A stretch of DNA of 64,000 nt, from contig CANLWY010000002.1 of the NCBI GenBank assembly GCA_947494995.1, positions 124,001-188,000 of the forward strand, in the 5' to 3' direction. The position numbers were made by a program, and so were the translations under genes. The DNA is from an uncultured Campylobacterales bacterium (GTDB taxonomy: Bacteria > Campylobacterota > Campylobacteria > Campylobacterales > Arcobacteraceae). This document shows, one piece after another, positions 58,170 through 64,000 of this stretch. Position 1 is the first letter of the stretch. The number at the start of each line of letters is the position of its first letter. The notes below the pieces were generated by a model that saw only the letters and a program-made list of their open reading frames with translations, was not told the origin of the DNA and made no database searches.

Positions 58170-60434
58170 GTGAAAAAGAAGAGTGTCTTATTATCATTGG
58201 CTTTAGCGGCAACACTTCAAGCTGAGCAAATTACTTCAATTGAGTATATTAATTTAACAAAGATTTCAACAAATATTGCAAACGATACACTTGGGATTAG
58301 AGTTGGAGAAGAACTAGATATTTCAAAGGTTAATAAAGCCATTAAAGAGTTTTATTCGTTTAACTATTTTGATGATATCTCTGTTTCTAGTGATAATGGA
58401 AAATTAAAGTTTTTATTTAAAGAGAAACCGTCAATCGCAAATGTTGATATAGAAGGGTATAAAAGTAGAGAGGATGATATCGAGATACTTAAGAAACAAA
58501 TAGGTATTCAACGTGGAAACATGTATTCAACTAAAAGAGTTAAAAATGCTAAAGAGGCTTTATTAAAAGAGCTTGAAAGAGAAGGCTATATAAACTCTGT
58601 TGTAGAAGTTGAGATTGACAACCTAAATGAAAATGCTGTTTCTGTTATCTTTAATGTAAATAAAGGTGATGAAATAGTTATTAAAAAAGTTAATTATTTT
58701 GGTTCTGACAGCTTAGAAGAGAGTGATTTTGAAAAGATTACTGCAAATAAAAAAGAGGAATTTGCTTCTTGGTTCATTACTCAAAATAGTGGTGAATTAA
58801 ATGCAGACCAATTACAGTATGATAGTAAAAGAATACAAGATCTTTATTTTGAACATGGATATTTAGATGCAAAAGTAAAAGATCCTTTTTTAGAGGTGGA
58901 TTTTGCATCAAATCAAGCTGATTTAGATTTTTATATAGAAGAAGGTATTCAATATAAAACAAACAGTATTACAATATATTTAAATGCTGAAATAGTTGAT
59001 CCTAAAGAGATATATCCAGAATTAAAGCTTAAAAAAGACAGGGTTTTTAATATTAAAAAACTAAGAAAAGATAGTAAATATATTAAAAATTTAGTTGCTG
59101 ATTTAGGTTATGCCTTTACTCAAGTAAGATATGATATTAAAAAAGATGAAAAAACAGGTACAGCAGATATTATCTTTAATGTAATTCCTGGAGACAAAGT
59201 ATATATAAATGATGTAAAAATTTCTGGTAATAGTAGAACATTAGATAGAGTTATTAGAAGAAATGTATTTTTAGCTCCTGGAGATTTATTTAACTTAACT
59301 GATTTTAATGATTCAAAAAATAGATTAAAAAGAAGTGGATTTTTTGAAGATGTAACTATAAAACAAAAAAGAGTTTCTTCTGATAAAATGGATTTACTTG
59401 TAGAAGTAAAAGAAGCTCCAACTGGAAATATTATCCTTGGTGGTGGATATGGTTCTTATGATGGTTTTATGGTAAATGCAGCAATCAATGAAAAGAATCT
59501 TTTTGGTTCAGGTATTGCTTTATCAATCTCTACAGACTTATCAAAAAGAAAATCTGATTTATCTTTAAAACTTACAAATCCAGCAATAAGAGATAGTAAA
59601 TATAGTGGAGATCTAGATATTCATTCTGATTCTTCTGAAATTGAAAATGATTACTATGAATTAGATAAAAAGACTAAAGGTTTCTCTGTAGGTGTTGGTC
59701 GTGAAATAATTAGAAACCTTAGAGCTGGTATAAGATATAGACTTGACTTTATTAGAGAAAGTTATGATTATGTATCAGAAAAACAAGGTGAAAAATATTA
59801 TGTTGATCCTAAAAAACGGTATCAAGATGAAGACTATGTAACAAGTTCTCTAACTCCTTTTATTAGATTTGACAATACAAATGATTATTACTTCCCTACT
59901 GAAGGTTTTAGAATAGGAAGTTCATTAGAGTATGCTGGTCTTGGTGGAGATTCAGAATATATTAAGAGTTCATCATATTTTAAATATTTTTACTCTTTAG
60001 AAGATAAATATGATTTAGACTGGGTTTTAAGAACTAAATTACAAGCGAAATTCTTAGTTGATAATGGACAAATAAATCAAGGGGATTCTTTATATTTAGG
60101 TGGTACAAAATCTTTAAGAGGTTATAAATCGTATGCATTTGGACCAAGTAGAGATACAGGAGAAAGAGAAGAACCGTGGAAAAACATGGCAGCAGCTTCT
60201 GTAGAATTTAGTTTACCATTACTTCCAAGTGCAAAAATGAGATGGGGACTTTTCTATGATTATGGAATGATTGGAAAAGACAATTTATCAGATGTAAAAA
60301 GATCTTCTACAGGTGCCTTACTTGAGTGGATATCACCGTTTGGACCTTTACAGTTGATTTTTGCACATCCACTTGATGATGAGCCAGGTGATGATACATC
60401 AAGCTTTGAATTCTCTTTAGGGTCTACATTCTAA
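58170..60434 (+). CDS. bamA: Outer-membrane assembly protein BamA (GTG start)
   Basis: POTRA repeats and Omp85 barrel; SLYLGGTKSLRGYKSYAFGP. Confidence 0.92.
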   Translation: MKKKSVLLSLALAATLQAEQITSIEYINLTKISTNIANDTLGIRVGEELDISKVNKAIKEFYSFNYFDDISVSSDNGKLKFLFKEKPSIANVDIEGYKSREDDIEILKKQIGIQRGNMYSTKRVKNAKEALLKELEREGYINSVVEVEIDNLNENAVSVIFNVNKGDEIVIKKVNYFGSDSLEESDFEKITANKKEEFASWFITQNSGELNADQLQYDSKRIQDLYFEHGYLDAKVKDPFLEVDFASNQADLDFYIEEGIQYKTNSITIYLNAEIVDPKEIYPELKLKKDRVFNIKKLRKDSKYIKNLVADLGYAFTQVRYDIKKDEKTGTADIIFNVIPGDKVYINDVKISGNSRTLDRVIRRNVFLAPGDLFNLTDFNDSKNRLKRSGFFEDVTIKQKRVSSDKMDLLVEVKEAPTGNIILGGGYGSYDGFMVNAAINEKNLFGSGIALSISTDLSKRKSDLSLKLTNPAIRDSKYSGDLDIHSDSSEIENDYYELDKKTKGFSVGVGREIIRNLRAGIRYRLDFIRESYDYVSEKQGEKYYVDPKKRYQDEDYVTSSLTPFIRFDNTNDYYFPTEGFRIGSSLEYAGLGGDSEYIKSSSYFKYFYSLEDKYDLDWVLRTKLQAKFLVDNGQINQGDSLYLGGTKSLRGYKSYAFGPSRDTGEREEPWKNMAAASVEFSLPLLPSAKMRWGLFYDYGMIGKDNLSDVKRSSTGALLEWISPFGPLQLIFAHPLDDEPGDDTSSFEFSLGSTF

Positions 60435-61504
60435 TGACTAAAAAAATAGATATAACAAACAGACGAATTACTAATGTGGAGGCTTTGGATTTAATTCAAA
60501 ATGCCTCTTTAGTAGAGCTCGGAGAATTAGCGACTAAAAAGAAAACTCAACTTCACCCTAATAAAGTTACTACTTTTGTAGTAGATAGAAATATAAACTA
60601 TACAAATGTTTGTTGGGTTGATTGTAAGTTTTGTGCTTTTTACAGACATAAAAGAGATGATGATTCATATGTTTTGTCATTTGATGAAATTGATAAAAAA
60701 ATTGAAGAGTTACTTGCTATTGGTGGAACACAAATTCTTATGCAAGGTGGAGTTCATCCAAATCTTAAAATTGATTACTATGAAGAGTTAGTTGAACATA
60801 TTCATACTAAATTTCCTCAAATCACCCTACACTCTTTTTCAGCAATTGAGATTTCTTATATTGCTAGGGTATCAAAAATTTCTAAACTAGAAGTTCTAAA
60901 AAGATTACAAGCTAAAGGTTTGAGTTCTATTCCTGGTGCTGGTGCAGAAATTCTTTCAGACAGAGTTAGAGATATAATAGCACCTAAGAAAATAGATGCC
61001 CAAGAGTGGATAGAAATTCATAGATTAGCACACTCAATTGGTATGAAAACAACTGCAACGATGATGTTTGGTACAGTTGAAACAGATGAAGAGATAATTG
61101 AACACTGGGAAATGATTAGAAAGCTTCAAGATGAAACTGGAGGTTTTAGAGCCTTTATTATGTGGTCTTTTCAAAGTGCAAACACACAGTTAAAAGAAGA
61201 AATACCTGATTTAAAAGCTCAATCATCAAATAGATATTTAAGGCTGTTAGCTGTTTCAAGAATCTACTTAGATAATTTTCCAAATATTCAAAGTTCATGG
61301 GTAACTCAAGGTTCATATATAGGTCAAATGGCTCTTAAATTTGGAGCAAATGATTTAGGTTCAACTATGATGGAAGAAAATGTTGTGGCTGCTGCTGGAG
61401 CTACAAATTGCATGAACCAAGATGAAATGATTCAATTAATCAAAGATGTGGGAGAAAATCCTGCAAAAAGAAATACAGCATATGAGATATTAGAAAGGTT
61501 TTAA
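60434..61504 (+). CDS. mqnC: Radical SAM dehypoxanthine futalosine cyclase-type protein
   Basis: NYTNVCWVDCKFCAFYR; GGTQILMQGGVHPNLKIDYYE. Confidence 0.85.
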   Translation: MTKKIDITNRRITNVEALDLIQNASLVELGELATKKKTQLHPNKVTTFVVDRNINYTNVCWVDCKFCAFYRHKRDDDSYVLSFDEIDKKIEELLAIGGTQILMQGGVHPNLKIDYYEELVEHIHTKFPQITLHSFSAIEISYIARVSKISKLEVLKRLQAKGLSSIPGAGAEILSDRVRDIIAPKKIDAQEWIEIHRLAHSIGMKTTATMMFGTVETDEEIIEHWEMIRKLQDETGGFRAFIMWSFQSANTQLKEEIPDLKAQSSNRYLRLLAVSRIYLDNFPNIQSSWVTQGSYIGQMALKFGANDLGSTMMEENVVAAAGATNCMNQDEMIQLIKDVGENPAKRNTAYEILERF

Positions 61505-61512
61505 TATCTACG

Positions 61513-62805
61513 ATGAAAACAATTTTCAAATCAATAACAATATTTTTATGTTTACAAGGAATTTTAATGGCTGCTACTATAAAGCATCTAGATATAAAAG
61601 GTTTAAAAGTACCTGTAGTTTTTGAACAAAATAAAAATCTTCCAATTTTAAATCTTCAATTAGTTTTTACAAATAGTGGTTACATCCAAGATAAAAGTAA
61701 TAGTGGATTAGCTTCAATTTCTGCTAAACTTTTAAATGAAGGTACAAAAAAGTTAGGGACAACAAAATTTGCTCAAAAGCTTGAAAATTCGGCTATCTCT
61801 TTACATGCAAATACAGGTTTTGAAACTTTTGTAATAGAGTTATCTTCTATTAAAGATGTACATACTAAAGCATTAAATCTTTTAAAAGATCTTTTAAAAG
61901 ATCCAAATTATGATGAAAAAGTTTTAAATAAATTAAAAACAATAAAAGTTGGTTCTTTAAAAAGAAAAGAGAATGATTACGATTATATTGCAAGTAAGAA
62001 TTTAAAAAAGCTTATTTTTAAAGGTACTGCTTTAGAAAATCCATCATCAGGTTCAATTGAAACAATTTCAAATATTGAGTTAAAAGATGTAAAGAAGTTC
62101 TTAAATAAAGCACTGGATTTAAACAACTTAATAGTTGTTGTTGGCGGAGATTTTAAATATGATGAAATCATCCCTAAAATTGAAGATGCAATAGATACTC
62201 TTCAAGCAAAAAATAAAAATAGTTTTGAAAAAATATCAATTACAAATGAAAATAAAACAAAAACTGTTTTAAAAGAGACGGAACAAGCTTATATATACTT
62301 TGGAAGTCCATTTGAGGCTGATGTTAAAGATAAAGATGCGTATATGGCAAAAGTTGCTTCTTTTATTTTAGGTGGAAGTGGATTTGGTTCAAGACTTATG
62401 GAAGAGATTAGAGTTAAAAGAGGTTTAGCTTATTCTGCTTATGGATATGTATCAATGAATAAATCGCACTCTTATTTTACAGGATATTTACAAACAAAAC
62501 TTGAAAGTGCTGATGAAGCAAAAGAGTTAGTTCAAACTATTGTAAAAGAGTTTGTAAAAAATGGTGTTACTGAAGATGAATTAGAGTCAGCTAAAAAGTT
62601 TTTATTAGGAAGTGAACCTTTAAGAACAGAAACACTATCTCAAAGATTAAATAGAGCATTTACTTTATATTACAGAGGTTTAGAGCAAAACCATACAGAA
62701 ATAGAGTTAGAACAAATAGAAAATCTTAAATTAGAAGCTTTAAACAAATATATAAAATCTCATAATGAGATTAAAAATTTATCATTTTCAATTGTAAGGA
62801 AATAG
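61513..62805 (+). CDS. M16 family peptidase-like protein
   Basis: M16 fold with [14 protein letters not shown]; canonical HxxEH not evident. Confidence 0.82.
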
Positions 62806-62806
62806 T

Positions 62807-64000
62807 TTGATAAGATATTCGATTAGTCCTACTAAGGATATGAGCCTTAGCGAGTTGAGACTTGCTATTTTTAGTTATATATTATCAAAGCAACAAGACG
62901 AAGCTTTGCTAATTAGAATTGATGATATTCAAAAAGAGAATAATATTGAAGGAAAAGAGAAAGAGATTTTAGAAATGTTAAGTCTTTTTTCTATTGATTA
63001 TTTAAATTGTGTTTATCAAAGTGAAAACTTTAAATATCATCAAAAATTAGCAATGCAGTTAATGTCACAAAAGAAAGCATTTGCCTGTTTTTGTTCGGAA
63101 GAAAAACTATCTGAACTTGATGAGTATGATGATTTTTGTTCAACTTTATCAGATGAAACAGTATTAAATTGTAATGCGCCTTTTACTGTTAGAATTAAAA
63201 GACCAGAAAAAAATAAAAAACCTTTTAACTTTGATTCTTTTGTTATTTTAAATCATGAAAAAACACCTGTTCAAACATATGCGAGTGCTGTTGATGATAT
63301 GATTACAAACGTTTCAACTGTTATTTCAAATGAGAATGAATCAGCTTCCGCAAAACAGATTCATGTAAGAAATGCATTAAATTATGATAAGAAAATTGAG
63401 TATATTTCAATTCCTGATATTAATGAAGATAATTCTTCTGTGAAGTGGCTTATAGAAGAAGGTTTCTTGCCAAGTGCAATTGCAAACTATCTTGTTGTTG
63501 TAGGAAATGAAACTCCAAGTGATTTTTTTAGTTTAGAAGAAGCGATTAAATGGTTTGATATTACAAAAATTTCAGAGGATAATTTATCTTTTGATATAAA
63601 AAAATTAAAAACTATAAATAAAAAACATCTTGAAGATATTGATGAAATGAGACTTTCAAAGATTTTGGGTTTTGCAGATTCTGATATAGGAAAACTTGCT
63701 AAACTATTTTTAGAAGAAGCTAATACTATTAATGAAATTAAATCTAAGATATCTCTTTTCTTTGCTTCAAAAACAACTTGTGAAGGTTTTGAAGAAGAGT
63801 TTGAGAAGATAAAAAAATCTCTTAAAACCGCACCTTTTATTAATGATTTTGAAGAATTAAAAAAATACATTACTGAGAAAACTGCTTTAAAAGAAGAAGA
63901 GTTCTCCAAACCATTAAGATATATCTTAACAGGACAAAATAATGGACCTGAACTTTGTAAGATATATCCTTTAATTAAAAACTATTTAGGGGAGATTATA
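62807..64000 (+). CDS. Glutamyl-tRNA synthetase homologue lacking recognisable HIGH and KMSKR motifs (partial, runs off window; TTG start)
   Basis: [29 protein letters not shown]...[32 protein letters not shown]...KQIHVRNAL...[29 protein letters not shown]...[26 protein letters not shown]. Absent from the supplied ORF track, presumably because no stop lies in the window. Confidence 0.8.

Follow-up and report, generated by a model that had tools for sequence, protein, structure and literature searches.

In Campylobacterota, the second glutamyl-tRNA synthetase, GluRS2 (GltX2), charges tRNA-Gln with glutamate, after which GatCAB amidates the product, as published for Helicobacter pylori. A GluRS-like catalytic body is also found in GluQRS (YadB), which carries a zinc site of the pattern CxC...Y...C and is catalytically active without an anticodon-binding domain. 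Synthetase paralogs that are catalytically dead and have identified roles include HisZ, the HisRS-like domain of GCN2 and SLIMP. The one paper that we found on genomes of this group with both GluRS2 and GlnRS described the combination in six epsilonproteobacteria and two Mesorhizobium, and proposed that the epsilonproteobacterial GlnRS is possibly non-functional (PMC3927822). The same paper reports that the second GluRS of Thermotoga maritima charges neither tRNA, which was ascribed to gene duplication in hyperthermophiles (PMC3927822). No published description of GluRS2 erosion was found in a literature search that had little coverage of subscription journals.

We analysed a window of 64,000 nucleotides from an uncultured Campylobacterales bacterium of the Arcobacteraceae (contig CANLWY010000002.1, positions 124,001 to 188,000), at the end of which lies the gene of a GluRS2 ortholog with an eroded active site (62807..64000; this and all other features are on the + strand). 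The window holds 398 of its 399 codons, and the six bases beyond the edge supply a lysine codon and the stop (64004-64006), leaving the frame intact. Translation starts at a TTG codon at 62807, 1 nt beyond the stop codon of the gene for an M16 peptidase (61513..62805) and 6 nt downstream of a Shine-Dalgarno-like AAGGA (62796..62800); a gene for an MqnC-like radical SAM enzyme precedes the peptidase in the operon (60434..61504). The full gene order is mqnC, M16 peptidase, GluRS2, yggT, lytic transglycosylase, mobB, fbp and metG, the last four names being read off translations, and the YggT product matches PF02325 (1.9e-21). The GluRS2 and yggT genes overlap, and the pair is kept over nearly the whole order in genomes with intact and with eroded copies alike. 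The coordinates recorded for this pair are window 62807-64000 and L009:4004-4282.

The protein matches NCBIfam TIGR00464 gltX_bact (8e-65; 219 bits, below the model cut-off of 290 bits), the Pfam class I E/Q synthetase domain tRNA-synt_1c (5e-26) and Anticodon_2 (9e-6). An AlphaFold2 model (mean pLDDT 91.7, pTM 0.88) aligns with solved GluRS structures at a TM-score of up to 0.84 by query length, and the predicted fold comprises the catalytic body and the connective-peptide (CP), stem-contact and anticodon-binding domains. The window protein shows 41-68% identity to Campylobacterota GluRS2 orthologs, against about 26-31% to the GluRS1 of its own genome; it nests among GluRS2 proteins, apart from that GluRS1, and its gene keeps the GluRS2-yggT order. 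Judged by these comparisons, it is an ortholog of the tRNA-Gln-specific glutamyl-tRNA synthetase GluRS2 of Campylobacterota. The window genome encodes three proteins of the family: this GluRS2; one canonical GluRS1, an open frame of 476 aa with HIGG and KLSKR; and an intact GlnRS, an open frame of 766 aa with HIGH, VMSKR and a GatB/YqeY-like tail.

The motifs required for activation of glutamate have largely gone from the window protein. The HIGH-equivalent (residues 13-16, 62843..62854) reads SLSE, where intact orthologs have HIGN, and the RGEDH-equivalent (residues 174-178, 63326..63340) reads SNENE. Alignment with orthologs reveals an in-frame deletion of the KKMSKR segment, in which TGKKMSKRDDASS of the orthologs has shrunk to NEDNSS, leaving a remnant of the KMSKS loop around INEDNSS (63416..63439). 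Elsewhere RIEDT has become RIDDI, PTYNYAC has become PVQTYAS and VIRGED has become VISNEN, and the equivalents of the glutamate-pocket residues R196 and Y178 are Ser and Gln. The protein hence has neither the HIGH and KMSKS motifs nor the pocket Arg and Tyr of an active class Ic glutamyl-tRNA synthetase, and is probably unable to activate glutamate. As the model matches GluRS structures, the losses are apparently not alignment artefacts, and the ortholog alignments together with the model rule out a functional HIGH or KMSKS hidden by misalignment. The sequence-only reading had matched the ORF by eye to the GluRS body and had described SLSE, SNENE and the loss of KMSKR; the domain matches, the predicted fold and the alignments with orthologs confirm all of this, and two of the checks that it called for, extension to the stop codon and a canonical gltX elsewhere in the genome, turned out as described above.

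The gene shares with active Campylobacterota GluRS2 its orthology, the conserved site before yggT, the predicted fold and the zinc-site residues of the CP domain, which are common to most families and the window protein; unlike them it has lost HIGH, RGED and KMSKS, and its genome has GlnRS instead. A match to GluQRS was also recorded (NCBIfam, 8e-20, with a fold match), and the two proteins have in common the zinc-site pattern and the GluRS-like catalytic body; unlike GluQRS, however, the window protein keeps an anticodon domain, matched by Anticodon_2, and its catalytic motifs are lost. The coexistence of GluRS2 and GlnRS is the genomic situation of the published cases, but the motif data would make GluRS2, rather than GlnRS, the inactive enzyme (compare PMC3927822). 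As in Thermotoga maritima, a second bacterial GluRS appears to be inactive, whereas inactivation is here recurrent and tied to GlnRS. The window protein probably resembles HisZ, the HisRS-like domain of GCN2 and SLIMP in keeping a synthetase fold without aminoacylation; unlike these, eroded GluRS2 arises repeatedly in parallel.

We surveyed the motifs of GluRS2 in a first set of 60 genomes, in 50 more reached through loci and in 40 taken from 150 that were sampled across the order, scoring a copy as intact if it had the H and G of HIGH plus the KK and SK of KKMSK. In the first 60 genomes, GluRS2 was eroded in all 31 that have both GlnRS and a GluRS2 gene and intact in 22 of the 23 without GlnRS, the exception (G032) being 74% complete. 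The pattern was repeated in the 50 locus-derived and the 40 order-wide genomes. Among 139 distinct GluRS2 orthologs, 80 were eroded and 3 intact in the presence of GlnRS, against 3 eroded and 53 intact in its absence (Fisher P = 7e-31 before correction for relatedness; split copies of G018 and G122 excluded, and G104, whose GlnRS is broken, scored as lacking GlnRS). This ortholog survey rules out that erosion is limited to the window genome. The GlnRS-bearing exceptions with intact or nearly intact motifs are L112 (G092), L116 (G077) and G196. In L116 other motif positions are already altered, while in G196, where GlnRS directly adjoins GluRS2, the HIGH-equivalent is HIGD; these two look like early stages of erosion. 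Eroded copies without GlnRS were found in G032 and in two MAGs, G078 and G079. At the HIGH motif, H to N occurs in 23 of the 83 eroded copies; we do not claim convergent directed change there as selection, since the commonest changes look explicable by AT-biased mutation.

Erosion and the presence of GlnRS have both changed many times. On the GatB tree, 14 changes of GlnRS state are needed and 10 are forced by supported branches, gain and loss being indistinguishable in such parsimony counts; gains are preferred because a genome with an already eroded GluRS2 should be unable to lose GlnRS. The direction agrees in about 8 of 10 independent pairs on this tree (sign test, median P = 0.008, range 0.004-0.125). 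On the GluRS2 tree, built with the motif columns removed, 21 erosion changes are counted. Supported branches force 14 of these, and eroded copies fall beside intact ones of the same family (in f1, f4, f6, f7, f16 and f20); the motif changes themselves differ from lineage to lineage. GlnRS proteins taken from different families share 69-80% identity with that of the window genome, and the GlnRS tree mixes families, so that GlnRS has moved between families by horizontal transfer while GluRS2 would have lost catalysis in place.

Because the nearest relative of the window protein is only 68% identical, selection on eroded GluRS2 was estimated from sister pairs that other eroded copies form. By the Nei-Gojobori method, pooled over sister pairs and thus simpler than a full branch model, dN/dS is 0.198 in eight pairs with both copies eroded (502 nonsynonymous and 520 synonymous changes, some of which may predate erosion) vs 0.094 in seven intact pairs; the eight eroded pairs taken singly range from 0.16 to 0.28, and their neighbouring genes show no rise in dN/dS. 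Relaxation of constraint centres on the active site, being strongest in the second Rossmann half with KMSKS (0.258 eroded vs 0.052 intact, P = 1.6e-11), with values of 0.123 vs 0.066 in the first Rossmann half, 0.218 vs 0.116 in the stem-contact region and 0.265 vs 0.147 in the anticodon domain. The only region without relaxation is the CP/acceptor-binding domain (about residues 66-130, 63002..63196; 0.100 vs 0.085, P = 0.56). It contains the conserved zinc-site residues C94, C96, Y107 and C111 (63086..63139), which presumably bind metal, by analogy with the GluRS/GluQRS pattern, and all four are kept in 78 of 83 eroded orthologs. Four copies with intact motifs, among them three active enzymes of family f13, have lost part of the site: its last position is W in these copies, and one of the four also lacks the second Cys. 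The conserved anticodon-domain residues K386, K398 and R405 also vary, and full tRNA recognition may therefore be lost.

Catalytic residues have gone while the protein remains under purifying selection, as measured in the sister pairs of other eroded copies, which is the signature of a pseudoenzyme; most eroded genes show neither the broken frame nor the absence of selection of a pseudogene, and the 399-codon frame of the window gene is intact. The sequence-only reading had argued for a retained non-catalytic paralogue rather than a decaying pseudogene, and this view is upheld by the open frames of orthologs in the family and by the dN/dS of 0.20 in eroded pairs, which also answers its proposal to measure selection across orthologues. 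Nothing that it had named as speaking against itself came to light: no motif is hidden, another GluRS is present and none of the Arcobacteraceae frames examined is broken. Our analysis goes beyond it in that the protein is a GluRS2 ortholog, not a generic paralogue, and in that erosion tracks GlnRS over the order.

Based on these findings, we propose that gain of a GlnRS gene by horizontal transfer would have allowed Gln-tRNA-Gln to be made directly, leaving Glu-tRNA-Gln unneeded and the catalysis of GluRS2 redundant. Erosion would then take the ATP-binding motifs HIGH and KMSKS along with some of the glutamate pocket, while the protein was kept. We are highly confident that the window protein is a GluRS2 and that GlnRS made its catalysis redundant, and give the explanation as a whole, including retention as a non-catalytic pseudoenzyme, a probability of about 0.85. 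From this we infer a non-catalytic job, which would be carried out largely through the zinc-bearing CP domain; that domain probably binds the acceptor arm of tRNA-Gln or docks on a partner that holds tRNA-Gln, such as GatCAB. GatB was found in all 60 relatives, and in none of these 60 was an AsnRS detected above the cut-off; without AsnRS, Asn-tRNA must come from amidation, and GatCAB therefore stays. That tRNA binding is the role retained is a plausible suggestion on which we would place somewhat less than even odds. More tentative still is the broader proposal of a convergent path, followed some ten or more times in one order, in which transfer of GlnRS turns GluRS2 into a tRNA- or partner-binding pseudoenzyme that acts through its zinc-bearing acceptor domain and might, for instance, chaperone or regulate tRNA-Gln or GatCAB.

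Loss of GluRS2 bears on whether there is a retained function at all. Of the 50 GlnRS-bearing genomes in the order-wide sample, at least 9 yielded no GluRS2 at E <= 1e-50, and in another GlnRS-bearing genome, G121, stop codons lie inside the gene; GluRS2 is thus dispensable in such genomes and its retained function is not universal. The eroded copy of G034 (L063, G034:C60:2510-3520) has lost query residues 87-151 in frame, and with them most of the zinc/acceptor domain. Redundant GluRS2 might accordingly be a relic without function awaiting loss, the Arcobacteraceae being merely early in a slow decay, and the absent or broken genes of GlnRS-bearing genomes (G042, G044, G113, G121, G124, G125, G126, G139, G195 and G231), the shorter proteins (381-416 aa) of some members of family f20 and the roughly two-fold overall relaxation of constraint are what such decay would produce. 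We nevertheless consider it unlikely, as GluRS2 is present and free of stops in all 28 GlnRS-bearing Arcobacteraceae of the relatives set, the pooled dN/dS of eroded pairs is close to that of the functional neighbour LT (0.18) and falls to 0.10 in the CP domain, and eroded copies hardly vary at the zinc-site residues, some of which the active f13 enzymes have nonetheless lost. The same low dN/dS and near-invariant residues would not be maintained by translational coupling to the overlapping yggT, which could otherwise explain an open frame given that the pair is conserved over nearly the whole order; with five genomes having YggT without GluRS2, retention solely for this coupling is ruled out, and we regard hitch-hiking in the operon as very improbable.

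A further possibility is that the eroded proteins bind a small molecule and have some other activity, such as sensing of glutamate or a nucleotide. In the eroded set, R3, D40, D163, D164 and Y193 show little or no variation, and the majority of eroded copies still have R196 and Y178, which belong to the putative glutamate pocket; however, the window protein has no equivalent of the latter two and nothing replaces HIGH and KMSKS, and we think this improbable. The number of origins would be much reduced if eroded GluRS2 and GlnRS had been transferred as one cassette, erosion having occurred once or a few times only, and many genomes do have the two genes side by side, in either orientation. Yet eroded copies cluster with intact ones from the same family, no fewer than 14 changes are forced by supported branches, and the lineages show different motif changes; the GluRS2 tree rules out co-transfer, and the chance that a cassette accounts for the pattern is slight indeed. 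If redundancy through GlnRS followed by retention as a pseudoenzyme is correct, the passage from indirect to direct Gln-tRNA synthesis is visible here as a repeated natural experiment, in which nearly intact intermediates (L116, G196) and eroded-but-kept, broken and lost copies stand side by side. It would also reverse the published suggestion of a non-functional GlnRS in these bacteria, imply that in many Campylobacterota 'glutamate--tRNA ligase' may be the wrong annotation, and point to an unrecognised non-catalytic role for a bacterial synthetase.

Several genomes showed other arrangements. Neither a GlnRS nor a GluRS2 match is listed for G049, G052, G056, G116, G119, G129, G141, G142 and G152, in which GluRS1 is presumably non-discriminating. 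At L309 (G122:C1:1540345-1541639), GluRS2 lies in two frames, through a sequencing error or a real frameshift, and no GlnRS was found in G122. GlnRS adjoins GluRS2 or lies within about 5 kb of it, in both orientations, in many genomes of several families (loci L048, L055, L066, L089, L093, L094, L116, L139, L149 and L154; genomes G118, G131, G133, G146, G156, G167, G184, G186, G193, G196, G203, G204, G217 and G224), and its position beside GluRS2 in both orientations suggests repeated insertion at the GluRS2 locus. The mirror case is G104, in which GlnRS is in short pieces with many stops (L251, G104:C171:7700-10500) and GluRS2 is intact; this GluRS2 (L103) groups with those of Arcobacteraceae.
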